From positions 1,922,001-1,986,000 of the forward strand of contig NC_019678.1 in NCBI RefSeq assembly GCF_000316665.1: DNA of 64,000 bases, read 5' to 3'. Position numbers and translations under genes: made by a program. Position 1 is the stretch's first letter. Every line of letters starts with the position of its first letter. The notes under the pieces are model-generated. The model ran no database searches. It worked only from the letters and a program-made list of their open reading frames with translations, and was not told where the DNA came from. Below, piece by piece: positions 42,771-47,481 of the stretch. Source of the DNA: Rivularia sp. PCC 7116. Lineage in GTDB: Bacteria; Cyanobacteriota; Cyanobacteriia; Cyanobacteriales; Nostocaceae.

Positions 42771-44495
42771 GTGTCGCAGCATAATATCGAAACGCACTCT
42801 CCGCAAGGTGGGGAACCCACCCCGGTTACTGCCGATTCAACCCAAGCATTTAAATTTGATTCGATTGATTCCGCATTGGCTGACTTGAAAACTGGTCGCT
42901 CTGTGGTTGTGGTGGATGATGAAAATCGAGAAAATGAAGGCGATTTGATTTGTGCAGCCCAGTTTGCAACACCAGATAATATCAACCTCATGGCGGTAGA
43001 AGCACGAGGTTTGATTTGTTTGGCAATGACTGGCGATCGCCTTGATGAACTTGATTTACCTTTGATGGTGAAGAACATCACTGATACCAATCAAACTGCT
43101 TTCACTGTCAGCATCGACGCTGGGCCAGAATTAGGGGTTACTACAGGAATTTCCGCTGAAGACCGCGCTCGTACTATTCAAGTCGCGCTCAACCCAAACA
43201 CTAAACCAGAAGATTTACGCCGTCCCGGTCATATTTTTCCAATTCGCGCTAAGAAGGGAGGAGTACTCAAAAGAGCGGGACATACGGAAGCTGCTGTAGA
43301 TTTATCTCGATTGGCTGGTTTGTATCCGGCTGGGGTAATTTGCGAAATCCAAAATCCCGACGGTTCGATGGCAAGGCTACCCGAATTAATCGAGTACGCC
43401 AAGCATCATAAAATGAAAATTATCAGCATCGCGGATTTAATTAGTTACCGTCTACGTTACGACAGAATAATTCAACGCGAAACTGTTGCCGATTTACCTA
43501 CAGAGTTCGGTAATTTCAAAATCTACGCTTATCGTCACACTCTTGACAATAAAGAACACGTTGCGATTGTTAAAGGTGACCCGGAGAAATTTGGTGACAA
43601 ACCAGTAATGGTGCGGGTACATTCCGAATGTCTCACCGGGGATGCTTTAGGCTCCTTACGCTGCGATTGTAGAATGCAGTTAAAAGCAGCCTTAAAAATG
43701 ATTGAAAATGCCGGAGAGGGTGTTGTTGTATACCTGCGTCAAGAAGGTCGCGGTATTGGGTTAATCAACAAATTAAAAGCCTATTCTTTGCAGGACATGG
43801 GGCTAGATACCGTAGAAGCAAACGAACGTCTGGGATTTCCTGCCGATTTACGCGACTACGGTATGGGAGCGCAAATGCTGATGGATTTAAACGTACATAA
43901 TATACGTTTGATTACTAACAACCCTCGTAAAATTGCTGGTTTGAAAGGTTATGGTTTGGAAGTTGTTGATAGAGTACCTTTATTAATTGAAGCCAACGAT
44001 TACAATACTCATTACCTAGCAACAAAAGCTAAAAAGCTAGGTCATATGCTCTTACAAACTTATTTAGTAACATTAGCATTGCATTGGCAAGACGAACCTT
44101 TATCAATTACCCAACGTTACGAGCGTTTAGAAAAGATACGGAATTTAGCAAAAGACTATCATTTATTATTGCAAGAAGAAACTCGTCCTTTAGGTCTTGC
44201 TTTATTTAGCGAACCATCTTTAACAGTACACTTAGGTTTAGACCAAGCCAACGTCGCTTCAGCGGATTGGTATCTTGAAATTGGTCATCCTTACGTACAG
44301 GCTGTTACTAACATCCTCGATAAACTGGTTGAATTACCTTACGTTCAAAAATTAGAATTTCTGATTTCACCTGGAGTAGATCCATTAAGTAAGCTACAGG
44401 TTAAATTAGATAGACAAGCTTTTGAAATCAGTCAATTACCTTCTTCACTCAGTGGTGAATTGGAAACCCAGAAAATTTATAGTTTTGGGAAGTGA
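42771..44495 (+). CDS. ribBA: Bifunctional 3,4-DHBP synthase / GTP cyclohydrolase II
   Basis: RibBA makes both riboflavin precursors. The 574-aa protein starts at GTG 42771 after an AT-rich leader. Residues about 35-235 are the RibB domain (VVVDDENRENEGDLI, the HTEAAVDL active-site segment). Residues about 240-435 are RibA, with the zinc Cys set HSECLTGDALGSLRCDCR and RQEGRGIGL, then DYGMGAQM and the LRLITNN region. About 135 residues follow that are typical of cyanobacterial RibBA but without known function (LGLDQANVASADWYLEIGHPY). No FMN riboswitch was recognised upstream. The second riboflavin gene of the window, ribD, is 13 kb away. Confidence 0.96.
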   Translation: MSQHNIETHSPQGGEPTPVTADSTQAFKFDSIDSALADLKTGRSVVVVDDENRENEGDLICAAQFATPDNINLMAVEARGLICLAMTGDRLDELDLPLMVKNITDTNQTAFTVSIDAGPELGVTTGISAEDRARTIQVALNPNTKPEDLRRPGHIFPIRAKKGGVLKRAGHTEAAVDLSRLAGLYPAGVICEIQNPDGSMARLPELIEYAKHHKMKIISIADLISYRLRYDRIIQRETVADLPTEFGNFKIYAYRHTLDNKEHVAIVKGDPEKFGDKPVMVRVHSECLTGDALGSLRCDCRMQLKAALKMIENAGEGVVVYLRQEGRGIGLINKLKAYSLQDMGLDTVEANERLGFPADLRDYGMGAQMLMDLNVHNIRLITNNPRKIAGLKGYGLEVVDRVPLLIEANDYNTHYLATKAKKLGHMLLQTYLVTLALHWQDEPLSITQRYERLEKIRNLAKDYHLLLQEETRPLGLALFSEPSLTVHLGLDQANVASADWYLEIGHPYVQAVTNILDKLVELPYVQKLEFLISPGVDPLSKLQVKLDRQAFEISQLPSSLSGELETQKIYSFGK

Positions 44496-44834
44496 ACCAA
44501 TTTTGGATTTTAGATTTTAGGTTTTAGATTGTAGGGGAGGCAAATTGGGAGGACACTGCGTTGCGGGGGTTCCCCCCATTGTAGCAAGTGTCCGGGTGTA
44601 GATTTTCTTCCCCCAATATTGCCGTTGTGTTACGGCACGAATATGTAATGCTTGAAATTGCAAAGTTGAAAATGCCGTAACGTATTAGCAATAATAACCT
44701 AAACGTACCTTTCTACCTTTGTCTTTAAATCGGACAACAGGTACAATTTTAATGTCTTCTTAATCCTGTGTCAGGGAATTACTATTGGTAAAGATTTACT
44801 ATTTTAGTTCAAATAATCAATTAAAGACGCAGCA
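44496..44834. other. Spacer with inverted-repeat arm A
   Basis: There is no gene. After a TTTTAGATTTTAGG repeat, bases 44531-44682 are one arm of the long inverted repeat that also occurs at 47327-47478. Bases 44683-44834 should hold the promoter of the ATPase-RloB pair. Confidence 0.7.
44531..44682 (+). repeat. 152-bp inverted repeat, arm A
   Basis: It starts GTAGGGGAGGCAAATTGGG and ends AATGCCGTAACG. It contains an internal hairpin (GGACACT...AGTGTCC enclosing GGGGGTTCCCCCC) and a second inverted pair (GTTACGGCAC...ATGCCGTAAC). The reverse complement of 47327-47478 matches with about 7 differences in 152 positions, counted by eye. Confidence 0.92.
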
Positions 44835-46148
44835 ATGCTTATAGAGTTTAGTATTGAAAATTATCGTTCAATTCAAGAGCGACAAACTTTGAGTATGGTG
44901 GCATCTAAGGATGAAGCCATGCTTGATAGTAACACTTTTCCTACACCTAACTCAAAAGACGAACTTCGCTTAATTACTAATGCTGTAATTTATGGTGCTA
45001 ACGCTTCAGGAAAAAGTAATTTATTACGAGCAATACAAACTTTAAGAAGGTTAGTGGTTGATTCAGCAAGTAAAATGCAGGTTGGTACTAAACTTCCTAT
45101 TGAGTCATTTCGATTAAATACTAAATATAAAAATCAACCAACTAGTTTTGAAATAATTTTTATTCATCAAGATATACGTTATGAATATGGAGTTGTGTTA
45201 ACTCGGGAACGGGTACATGAGGAATGGTTAATAGCTTATCCCAATGAACGCTCTCAAAAATGGTTTTCTCGTGAGTATTTAGCAGAAAATAAGGAGTATA
45301 AGTGGTCTTTTGGAAAAGCATTAAAGGGAGAAAAACAAAGTATAAAAAAACTTGTTCGCTCTAATTCTTTGTTTCTTTCTCATGCTGCACAAAACAATCA
45401 CATTCAACTAACTCAAATTTTTAAATGGTTTGACTCAGAATTAAATATTCTTACATCCAATACTATTGTAGAAGGATTTACATTAAGATTTTGCGAAGAA
45501 CACGATGATTTTCGTCAACAGGTAGTTAATTTGTTAAGCGAAGCAGATATTGGTATTTCAGATATAAAAATTGAACAAAAACCGATATCAGAAAAAGAAA
45601 AAAGCTTATTTAAACAGTTTTTGATGAGACAAGTTTTTGAAAACCAAGAGCTAGAAGAAGACATCAATTTTGAAGAATTACAATCATTGGATGTAAAAAC
45701 TATGCATCAAATGAATGATTCGGAACAAGAAGTCGAATTTGAGATGGAAGATGAGTCAGATGGAACGCAACGTTTATTTCAGTTAGCAGGACTTTGGCTG
45801 TATGTTTTACAAACAGGGGAAACATTAATTGTAGATGAATTAGGTAGAAGTTTGCATCCAGTTTTAACAAGAGCATTAATAAAAATGTTTAATAATCCAG
45901 AAATCAATCAAAACAATGCTCAAATTATTTTTACAATTCATGATACTACGCTTCTAGATACAGGATTATTTAGACAAGACCAAGTATGGTTTACTGAGAA
46001 AGAAAAAAGCGCAACTAAATTATATTCATTGCTTGATTTCATGAATCTAAATGATGAATCTTTAGAAAAAGGATACCTTTTAGGTTTATATGGTGCTGTT
46101 CCTTTTACTGACGGATTAAATAGTATAAATTATGTCAAAAAGAGGTAA
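44835..46148 (+). CDS. AAA/ABC-type ATPase of an AbiL/RloAB-like defence pair
   Basis: This 437-aa protein of the AAA_15/AAA_21 class is related to OLD-family and RloA/AbiLi ATPases. Walker A is YGANASGKSN (G54-S61). An ABC-like signature ESDGTQRLFQLA precedes Walker B LIVDELGRSLHP, and a switch-type His follows in FTIHDTTLLD. About 100 residues of charged, Glu-rich insertion lie between the signature and the N-terminal half. Its last 17 bases overlap the start of the RloB gene. In this class the ATPase senses invasion and gates a partner effector. The role here is inferred from family and partner, not from any visible phage target. Confidence 0.85.
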   Translation: MLIEFSIENYRSIQERQTLSMVASKDEAMLDSNTFPTPNSKDELRLITNAVIYGANASGKSNLLRAIQTLRRLVVDSASKMQVGTKLPIESFRLNTKYKNQPTSFEIIFIHQDIRYEYGVVLTRERVHEEWLIAYPNERSQKWFSREYLAENKEYKWSFGKALKGEKQSIKKLVRSNSLFLSHAAQNNHIQLTQIFKWFDSELNILTSNTIVEGFTLRFCEEHDDFRQQVVNLLSEADIGISDIKIEQKPISEKEKSLFKQFLMRQVFENQELEEDINFEELQSLDVKTMHQMNDSEQEVEFEMEDESDGTQRLFQLAGLWLYVLQTGETLIVDELGRSLHPVLTRALIKMFNNPEINQNNAQIIFTIHDTTLLDTGLFRQDQVWFTEKEKSATKLYSLLDFMNLNDESLEKGYLLGLYGAVPFTDGLNSINYVKKR

Positions 46149-46800
46149 AAATAAGAATCAGCTACAAAGAGGCAAAGCAAACAAGAAACGGATAAAATAT
46201 ATTTTAATTGTAGTTGAAGGTCAAGAAACTGAATATAACTATTTTAATTCCTTGAAAGATGATTTAAAACTAAAGACTACAGAAATACAAGTTGCGCGTG
46301 CTTCTGGTGGTAGTCCTTTAGATGTTGTAGAAAAAGCGAAAAGTTTATTGCAAGAAAAAATTAGACTTAGTAACAAACAAGGTAACCCAAAATACGATGA
46401 AGTATTTTGCGTTTTCGACCAAGATAACCAAATGAAAAAATATCATCAAGCTTTAATAGAAGCTAAAAATAATAATATTCAAGCTATAACATCAATTCCC
46501 TGCTTTGAAGTTTGGTTTTTATTGCACTGCTGTAACACTAGCAGCCCTTTTTCTGATTGTAAGGAAGTATGCAAAAAATTAGAATCAGAGTTCAAAAAGC
46601 TAAGATTTTTAAAACCTAAAGAATGCTATGAGAAAAAGAATTCTGACTGGTACAAAATTTTAAAGCCGAAACTTCAGAATGCTATTGATAATGCAGAAAA
46701 ATTAGAGAAATACCAGGAAAATAATCGAGAAAATTTTAATCCATCTACAAAAGTACATATTTTAGTGAAAATTCTGCAAAATCAAAAGCATTTTGAATAG
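46132..46800 (+). CDS. RloB-family protein, TOPRIM-like effector
   Basis: This 222-aa protein begins with a Lys/Arg/Asn-rich stretch and then YILIVVEGQETEYNYF, the RloB-family opening. Glu29 in VEGQETE and the D96-Q-D98 pair in VFDQDNQ are arranged as in TOPRIM nucleases (E...DxD). A conserved PCFEVWFLLHCC block follows, and the C-terminal part is helical and basic. RloB (restriction-linked ORF B; AbiLii in the AbiL system) is normally encoded directly after an ATPase, as here, with a 17-bp overlap that implies coupled translation. A nuclease activity is an inference from the acidic residues. Confidence 0.85.
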   Translation: MSKRGKNKNQLQRGKANKKRIKYILIVVEGQETEYNYFNSLKDDLKLKTTEIQVARASGGSPLDVVEKAKSLLQEKIRLSNKQGNPKYDEVFCVFDQDNQMKKYHQALIEAKNNNIQAITSIPCFEVWFLLHCCNTSSPFSDCKEVCKKLESEFKKLRFLKPKECYEKKNSDWYKILKPKLQNAIDNAEKLEKYQENNRENFNPSTKVHILVKILQNQKHFE

Positions 46801-46811
46801 ATTGTTACTTC

Positions 46812-47219
46812 TCATAAGTTCGTAGTAAGCGATTTATCGCTCTTCCTTAACCAAAATATAAAAATCAGAATTAAATAAATCAATCCAAGCAAACCAGCAC
46901 CATAAATCAACCCTAAAGAAAGAGTAGAATTAAAAGTATAATTTGGACTATTTTCTAATAACTTATGAAGTCCGCTGTGAATTATCATAAATCCAGCAAG
47001 CGCAATCCGCGACCAATTTTTAACAACTTCAGACTCATTATTTGTTAACCACAATAGCGCTGCAATCAGTGGTATATGAAGAACAATAAAAGCTACGGAT
47101 GCAGTTTGCTCTGGTAAACTTCGCAATATAAACAAAAGCTTCCATTCCGATTGCGTCATCGCATCGAGTTCGTGAGTAAGAATTGTTGCAAAGCCTAAAT
47201 AAAAAAGCAGGTTTTTCAT
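46812..47219 (-). CDS. Small membrane protein, possibly DUF6713
   Basis: This 135-aa protein has four hydrophobic segments (about 3-15, 38-58, 70-85, 103-123). It opens with LLFYLGFATILTHELDAMTQSEW; the THELDAM motif and the later HSGLHKLLE histidines are the distinctive features. I recall this pattern from the DUF6713 family, but the number should be checked. The function is unknown. It converges on rloB with 11 bp between stops, and it too lies inside the inverted-repeat pair. It may be cargo of the same module or an unrelated passenger. Confidence 0.65.
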   Translation of the reverse strand: MKNLLFYLGFATILTHELDAMTQSEWKLLFILRSLPEQTASVAFIVLHIPLIAALLWLTNNESEVVKNWSRIALAGFMIIHSGLHKLLENSPNYTFNSTLSLGLIYGAGLLGLIYLILIFIFWLRKSDKSLTTNL

Positions 47220-47253
47220 TACTCTATTAAATTTATTCCAGATAATTGTTAAA

Positions 47254-47287
47254 TGTAGGGTGTGTTATCGCGCAGCGTAACGCACCA
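47254..47287. repeat. Palindromic repeat (GGTGCGTTACGC family)
   Basis: TGTAGGGTGTGTTA...TAACGCACCAT is an inverted repeat like that at 16886-16918. It lies just inside arm B. Confidence 0.75.
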
Positions 47288-47326
47288 TACTAAGAATAGT
47301 TATTTGTTTAATTTCTATAAATGGTG

Positions 47327-47478
47327 CGTTACGGCATTTTCACATTTGTAATTTATACCATTACATATTCGTGCCGTAACACAACGGTAATATTGGGGGA
47401 AGAAAATCTACACCCGGACACTTGCTACAATGGGGGGAACCCCCGCAACGCAGTGTCCTCCCAATTTGCCTCCCCTAC
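47327..47478 (-). repeat. 152-bp inverted repeat, arm B
   Basis: This is the reverse-oriented copy of 44531-44682, with differences concentrated in a 25-base patch near 47340-47365. The stop codon of the DUF2834 gene (47482) lies 3 bases outside it. Confidence 0.92.
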
Positions 47479-47481
47479 AAA

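Follow-up and report, generated by a model that had tools for sequence, protein, structure and literature searches.

Directly downstream of ribBA in the cyanobacterium Rivularia sp. PCC 7116 lie two overlapping genes, coding for an ABC ATPase and an RloB-family protein, which constitute a member of the AbiL/RloAB systems with a putative role in defence. They are found in a stretch of 64,000 nucleotides of contig NC_019678.1 (forward-strand positions 1,922,001 to 1,986,000; hereafter the window, to which all unqualified coordinates refer), and are enclosed by two long inverted repeats, the arms. The reading that we favor, with a probability of roughly 0.78, is that this is an old resident AbiL-type pair, on either side of which copies of a dispersed repeat settled later, such that the arms neither define nor move it; it would act in a PARIS-like manner, with the central insert of RloA serving as a sensing surface diversified mainly by allelic exchange. 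A more sweeping formulation is offered tentatively, at somewhat short of even odds: the rloAB locus after ribBA may be an immune locus fixed in this family of cyanobacteria, and alleles of its sensor ATPase may swap a recognition segment of about 90 residues, even across genera, within a conserved chassis; this bacterial innate-immune gene would then diversify much as the specificity subunits of restriction systems do. The points worth following are the fidelity of the locus to ribBA and the variable segment of RloA.

RloA (44835..46148, + strand; 437 amino acids) is recovered by the PADLOC AbiLi profile (E 1.4e-98) and by Pfam AAA_21 (5.8e-43), and is the putative sensor. RloB (46132..46800, +; 222 amino acids) is recovered by Pfam RloB (4.7e-47) and by AbiLii (3.7e-27), and is the putative TOPRIM-like effector; its gene overlaps that of RloA by 17 nucleotides. 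The original prediction, which placed an AAA/ABC ATPase, an RloB-family gene and a small membrane protein in the block between the arms, is borne out by these matches and by the DUF6713 protein described below. An AbiLi-type ATPase gene with an adjacent RloB/AbiLii gene is likewise the layout of AbiL (AbiLi/AbiLii of Lactococcus) and RloAB, which consist of two overlapping genes, the ABC ATPase preceding the RloB-family protein. Unlike the known AbiL/RloAB systems, the pair considered here occupies a fixed chromosomal site after ribBA in this family and has a hypervariable RloA centre.

The linkage to ribBA (42771..44495, +; Pfam) was surveyed in the family. Among 217 family genomes, 105 have an RloA match and 20 have a close RloA, defined by at least 59% identity over nearly the full length; the remaining full-length matches, among those listed, do not exceed 43% identity. 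The close RloA directly follows ribBA in 19 of the 20 genomes, spanning 10 genera by group code, with ribBA itself present in 212 of the 217. The exception, G029, has a close RloA that is not directly after ribBA and beside which no RloB was found; as the fetched stretch contains no ribBA, this genome was left out of the ribBA tree and of the flank survey. Near the RloA genes of the distant clade, ribBA was found at none of 10 loci within flanks of 1.5 kb; class-level RloB loci were not used as a further control because their flanks end too near RloA. For the flank survey, 58 flanks were taken from outside the genus (18 with RloA and 40 RloA-lacking, hand-chosen for spread), together with those of the 8 genomes of the genus; 65 of these flanks contain ribBA. 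Of the 65, 40 have downstream a convergent gene, which from its sequence we take to be amidase-like: 15 of the 19 RloAB-positive flanks and 25 of the 46 others. In the 15 RloAB-positive flanks it is situated on the far side of RloB, sometimes separated from it by another gene. RloA relatives also occur in 181 plasmid and 8 phage records, all with less than 60% identity; thus, no reservoir of the ribBA-linked clade was found among them.

The second characteristic of the locus is the variability of the middle of RloA. For comparison, residues 205-290 (45447..45704, +) were treated as the centre, and residues 1-195 together with 315-437 as the flank. RloA proteins compared within genera show a sharp mid-protein dip in identity, and when all pairs are compared over spans of 40 residues, those starting at residues 189-259 average 28-47%, against 66-84% for those starting at 1-169 or at 295 and beyond. 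In four genomes of genus g28 (G149, G152, G156 and G118) the flanks are 87-91% identical, and the centres 18-29% in five of the six pairs and 59% in the sixth. The centre of a fifth g28 genome, G079, is 70% identical to that of G083, a member of another genus, and 21-34% identical to those of its own genus; likewise, G099, G035 and G134, from three genera, have centres 65-75% identical. In the tree of the centre, a g28 clade is rejected (approximately unbiased test, p 4.9e-7), as is the grouping of G083 with G099 (p 2.5e-82), which the ribBA tree recovers with a support of 98/97; the flank tree holds g28 together with a modest support of 63/91. In a control set of 10 RloA proteins of the distant clade, one same-genus pair has a flank identity of 93% and a centre identity of 43%, and another pair 95% and 90%; the same trend being present there, the variability is a trait of RloA more widely in the family, rather than of the ribBA site. 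The hypervariable centre fits the pattern that exchange of segments between alleles would leave and, judging from these comparisons, probably diversified mainly in that way.

Several observations weigh against the favored reading. The patchy presence of close RloA fits old residence with many losses or, alternatively, repeated transfer to one site. The dip is missing from several pairs, such as G102/G077 (centre 94%) and G171/G172 (centre 99%), as also from the pair formed by the genome under study, G000, and G002 (centre 79%, flank 83%); the centres of the other g7 pairs are 62-73% identical. With G079 set aside, the centre no longer rejects a clade of the remaining g28 genomes (p 0.065), and a grouping of G079 with G083 is compatible with the flanks (p 0.63), so that a longer piece might have been transferred there. 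Divergence of the centre could also stem in part from fast substitution together with insertions and deletions. As for the putative effector, a Foldseek search with the RloB model (predicted local distance difference test score, pLDDT, 74) returned no match at E <= 0.001.

Of the competing explanations, the one that fares best is that the whole rloAB operon was transferred horizontally into one favored site after ribBA, by homologous recombination via the conserved flanks, rather than being an old resident that was lost in many lineages. This we regard as unlikely: the small number of genomes with a close RloA (20 of 217) speaks for it, as does the conflict of the full-length RloA tree with ribBA for G079/G083 and for G099/G035/G134, but the dip in g28 and in G083/G099 is restricted to the centre of RloA, with the 3' end of ribBA and most of the upstream intergenic DNA being similar. 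Moreover, coding remnants in four of the 46 flanks lacking an intact pair (G180, G021, G003 and G007) point to losses. A further explanation, to which we give rather little credence, holds that a loose linker varies through relaxed constraint or diversifying selection, with neither allele exchange nor sensing involved. The low identity of spans starting at 189-259 speaks for it, and part of the segment is modelled at lower confidence; against this, the centre is modelled (RloA pLDDT 75.7) as helices (213-222, 224-237 and 253-270) and strands (241-250 and 283-292), and its types recur across genera even as they differ within g28. Codon identity falls in the centre too: at identical residues in the four g28 genomes, codon agreement is 86-95% in the flank and 56-77% in the centre, the latter calculated from small counts of 16-47, which lessens its weight in favor of exchange.

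In the favored reading, the centre, an insert between the two halves of the ATPase, is probably the sensing surface. Compared by structure, the RloA model matches Rad50 heads best; the top 50 PDB matches also include SMC heads and PtuA of retron Ec78. By sequence, no PDB match was found for RloA at E <= 0.01, and RloB has only 5 weak PDB matches, the best with E 0.043. We take GANASGKS (residues 54-61) to be the Walker A motif of RloA, and ESDGTQ at 307 and VDE at 333 to mark its signature/Walker B region; the variable segment sits between these two parts. In Rad50 and SMC proteins, a coiled coil is inserted between the Walker A and the signature/Walker B parts. In RloB, E29, E34 and D96 are invariant in 8 aligned sequences and would be compatible with a TOPRIM-type site. 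Separately, RloB shows a milder dip at about residues 60-90 in some within-genus pairs (g28 loci, among them L104), and this dip may co-vary with the centre of RloA.

PMC10440598 relates RloB to OLD_TOPRIM, and PMC12409363 places AbiL with the OLD/ABC systems. A functional precedent is PARIS: there, AriA keeps hold of AriB, and a phage protein triggers the release of AriB and tRNA cleavage (PMC11455837). PARIS combines an ABC ATPase sensor with a TOPRIM-type effector in two genes (PMC11455837; PMC12409363), a layout to which the putative sensor and effector described here would correspond, and RloA also matches the AriA profile of PADLOC (7.5e-42). Unlike in PARIS, the putative effector here matches RloB/AbiLii only, and not AriB, in PADLOC. 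Because of this analogy with AriA/AriB, a PARIS-like action is proposed for RloAB: RloA may sense a phage product by way of its central insert and keep the TOPRIM-like RloB inactive until triggered, whereupon RloB would bring about abortive infection, and segments exchanged among alleles would be the main source of the insert's diversity. To our knowledge, little has been learned of the trigger of AbiL/RloAB systems. A hypervariable, apparently exchangeable segment in an operon faithful to its locus hints at where phage recognition may lie, and the natural RloA alleles offer material for probing it. We recognized no description of a ribBA-linked RloAB locus or of a hypervariable RloA segment in the literature on RloA/RloB, AbiL, PARIS, hypervariable sensors and allelic exchange, sources covered mostly at the level of listings, which is no proof of absence.

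The relative ages of the pair and the arms emerge from the same site in the genus, for which 8 genomes (G000-G007) were compared. Plectonema cf. radiosum LEGE 06105 (G002) has RloAB between ribBA and DUF6713, in the order and orientation of G000 and with the arms absent; a REP-like piece (REP, repetitive extragenic palindrome) stands alone on the right side, and the RloB gene has one in-frame stop. G003 and G007 retain the upstream region and the first 46 RloA codons, followed by other DNA, and G003 additionally retains a piece of RloB. With RloAB thus at the site without arms in G002 and as remnants in G003 and G007, the pair is older there than the arms. In G001, G004, G005 and G006, no RloA was found in the genome and no RloAB DNA at the site; G000 itself has a single RloA match. 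Hence, the comparison of the ribBA-to-DUF2834 interval suggested in the original prediction finds the pair or its remnants in some relatives and not in all of them, four of the eight genus genomes lacking an RloA match. DUF6713 (46812..47219, −; Pfam), a small membrane protein of 135 amino acids, is encoded beside DUF2834 in six congeners (G001-G006), with extra DNA between them in G003, DUF6713 in two pieces in G004 and DUF2834 reduced to a fragment in G005; the G007 contig stops before this region. DUF6713 is therefore a resident chromosomal gene outside the defence pair, and the right arm splits two resident genes, of which the block holds one. On the favored reading, the RloAB pair would be a long-standing occupant of the interval that follows ribBA, next to the resident genes DUF6713 and DUF2834, and the two repeat copies would have arrived on either side of it afterwards, in the G000 lineage.

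The interrupted loci of the genus show further changes. The DNA inserted after about RloA codon 46 in G007 (L084 3586-4199) and G003 (L080, reverse strand) carries hairpins; it is 92% identical between the two over 396 nucleotides, a span that includes the RloA start, and in G003 the DNA beyond the break encodes what is presumably a FolE2-like protein. No Rfam match at gathering thresholds was found in these loci (L079, L080 and L084). Between DUF6713 and DUF2834 of G003 (L079 2331-2452), a REP is followed by an RloA-upstream piece fused to a mid-RloA piece, an arrangement suggestive of rearrangement of the locus by REP-mediated duplication and deletion. This locus also collects other genes, which we take to be a patatin-like gene adjoining the RloB remnant (L079 about 250-1520) and a GNAT-like gene between DUF6713 and DUF2834 (L079 2470-3320).

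The arms are two copies of a composite dispersed repeat, consisting of a REP doublet and a module with a nested hairpin. The left arm (44529..44682, +) and the right arm (47327..47480, −, between DUF6713 and DUF2834) are each 154 nucleotides long, 95% complementary and inverted, with 2,644 nucleotides between them; with E 5.9e-66 for the match of one to the other, searched in the 8.73-Mb genome of G000, the inverted repeat is not due to chance. The repeats had been predicted to be 152 bp long and about 95% identical; their inversion and identity hold, and their length needs correction, the proposed start at 44531 lying 2 nucleotides inside the arm. The predicted clustering of mismatches is also upheld: among the 7 mismatches in 154 positions, one is at arm position 93 and six are within positions 123-138, which is the loop of the REP doublet. 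The doublet (GTTACGGC, 37 nucleotides, GCCGTAAC) occupies 44629..44681 (+) in the left arm and, by a search for the doublet pattern, 47328..47380 (−) in the right arm. The hairpin module (GGACACT...AGTGTCC) is located at 44551..44593 (+) and, at the mirrored position, at 47416..47458 (−), and is itself dispersed, matches to about positions 18-66 of the query recurring at many sites in G000 and its congeners.

A search of G000 with the left arm, in which 40 of 97 candidates were scored (and no more than about 40 per congener, all counts thus being minimum values), yielded 2 full-length matches, which are the two arms, and 38 partial ones. Most of the scored partial matches fall into two modules, at about positions 18-66 and 66-120 of the query. 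Of the 28 partial loci viewed, none unites both modules: the first occurs as a hairpin at unrelated positions, and the second frequently continues into a REP-like palindrome. A pattern for the junction of the hairpin with the second module, allowing up to 3 mismatches, matches only the two arms in G000. By contrast with a control pattern, which has 0 copies, the doublet is present in 27 exact copies in G000, with a total length of 52-55 nucleotides, two of them being those of the arms.

Such inverted doublets with near-constant spacing at many sites of G000 are REPIN-like, resembling REPINs and GTAG-type REP elements as these are described in PMC3116915 and PMC3733652. Unlike those elements, to which it is likened by layout, the doublet here is fused to a second dispersed module with a nested hairpin. 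Among the small dispersed repeats of cyanobacteria, very small repeats are reportedly nested within other repeats (Elhai, writing in 2008, is said to have described this), and the arms resemble them in this nesting, by description rather than by sequence. Pieces of the arms were found in all 8 genus genomes. Among 15 arm-like elements fetched from congeners, G001 has a complete one (hairpin and doublet) at a different site, and G001 and G003 have a unit without the hairpin; in G006, 9 of 10 copies are nearly identical across the first 103 or so nucleotides of the arm. These near-identical module copies of G006 (L213-L216 and L218-L220) have common flanks, which points to a larger composite repeat having multiplied recently. 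Since the arms are the sole composites found in G000, are nearly identical over 120 nucleotides and lie 2.6 kb apart, one was probably copied from the other, perhaps by short-range duplication or gene conversion. The left-arm REP agrees with the left-side REP of G003 at 43 of 55 positions, and the right-arm REP at 41 of 55.

Two explanations would give the arms a part in the history or working of the locus. That they serve it, for instance as a switch working by inversion or as hairpins common to rloAB for regulation or termination, is quite improbable: inverted repeats of 154 bp could recombine and both hold palindromic modules, but G002 has the pair in the same order and orientation without arms, and the arms are absent at 18 other close-RloA loci (17 linked to ribBA, and G029), the sole match there being a 37-nucleotide hairpin piece at 78%. 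Scarcely credible, and rejected here, is the cut-and-paste cassette originally predicted, in which the arms would be terminal inverted repeats of an element that, without a transposase of its own, brought RloAB and the membrane protein to the site: the long, near-identical inverted arms around an AT-rich block and the restriction of the composites in G000 to this block are countered by the cargo of G002 present where the arms are missing, the remnants in G003 and G007, the resident DUF6713, the absence of any target-site duplication of 3-12 nucleotides outside the arms, and the lack of an RloA match in G001 and G006 despite their dispersed arm-like elements. The alternative raised along with the cassette, that two copies of a dispersed repeat happen to lie on either side, is supported by the many sites of the arm pieces, with the qualification that the only two composites of G000 are both here. 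Resident genes together with scattered repeats thus account for what appeared as a mobile cassette, which warns against inferring cassettes on the strength of inverted repeats alone.

The block is indeed more AT-rich than its surroundings, as had been noted: its G+C content is 31.1%, whereas 122 intervals of block size average 38.3% (s.d. 3.0), one of them (those overlapping the block included) being as low; of its neighbors, DUF2834 is also AT-rich (30.7% G+C) and ribBA is not (41.9%). In the stretch of another RloAB-positive genome, G172 (L198 5114-7617), there are short inverted repeats of about 70-79 nucleotides unrelated to the arms. Upstream of RloA in G000 is a palindromic sequence (ACCTTTGTC...GACAACAGGT; 44716..44743, +), a possible operator, and similar sequences precede RloA in G002, G003 and G007. 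A separated inverted repeat (AACCCACAAAT ... ATTTGTGGGTTA) stands before RloA in several genera (g28, g22, g34 and other loci) and might be an autoregulatory operator; the palindrome common to G000 and G002 differs from this repeat of the g28, g22 and g34 loci.

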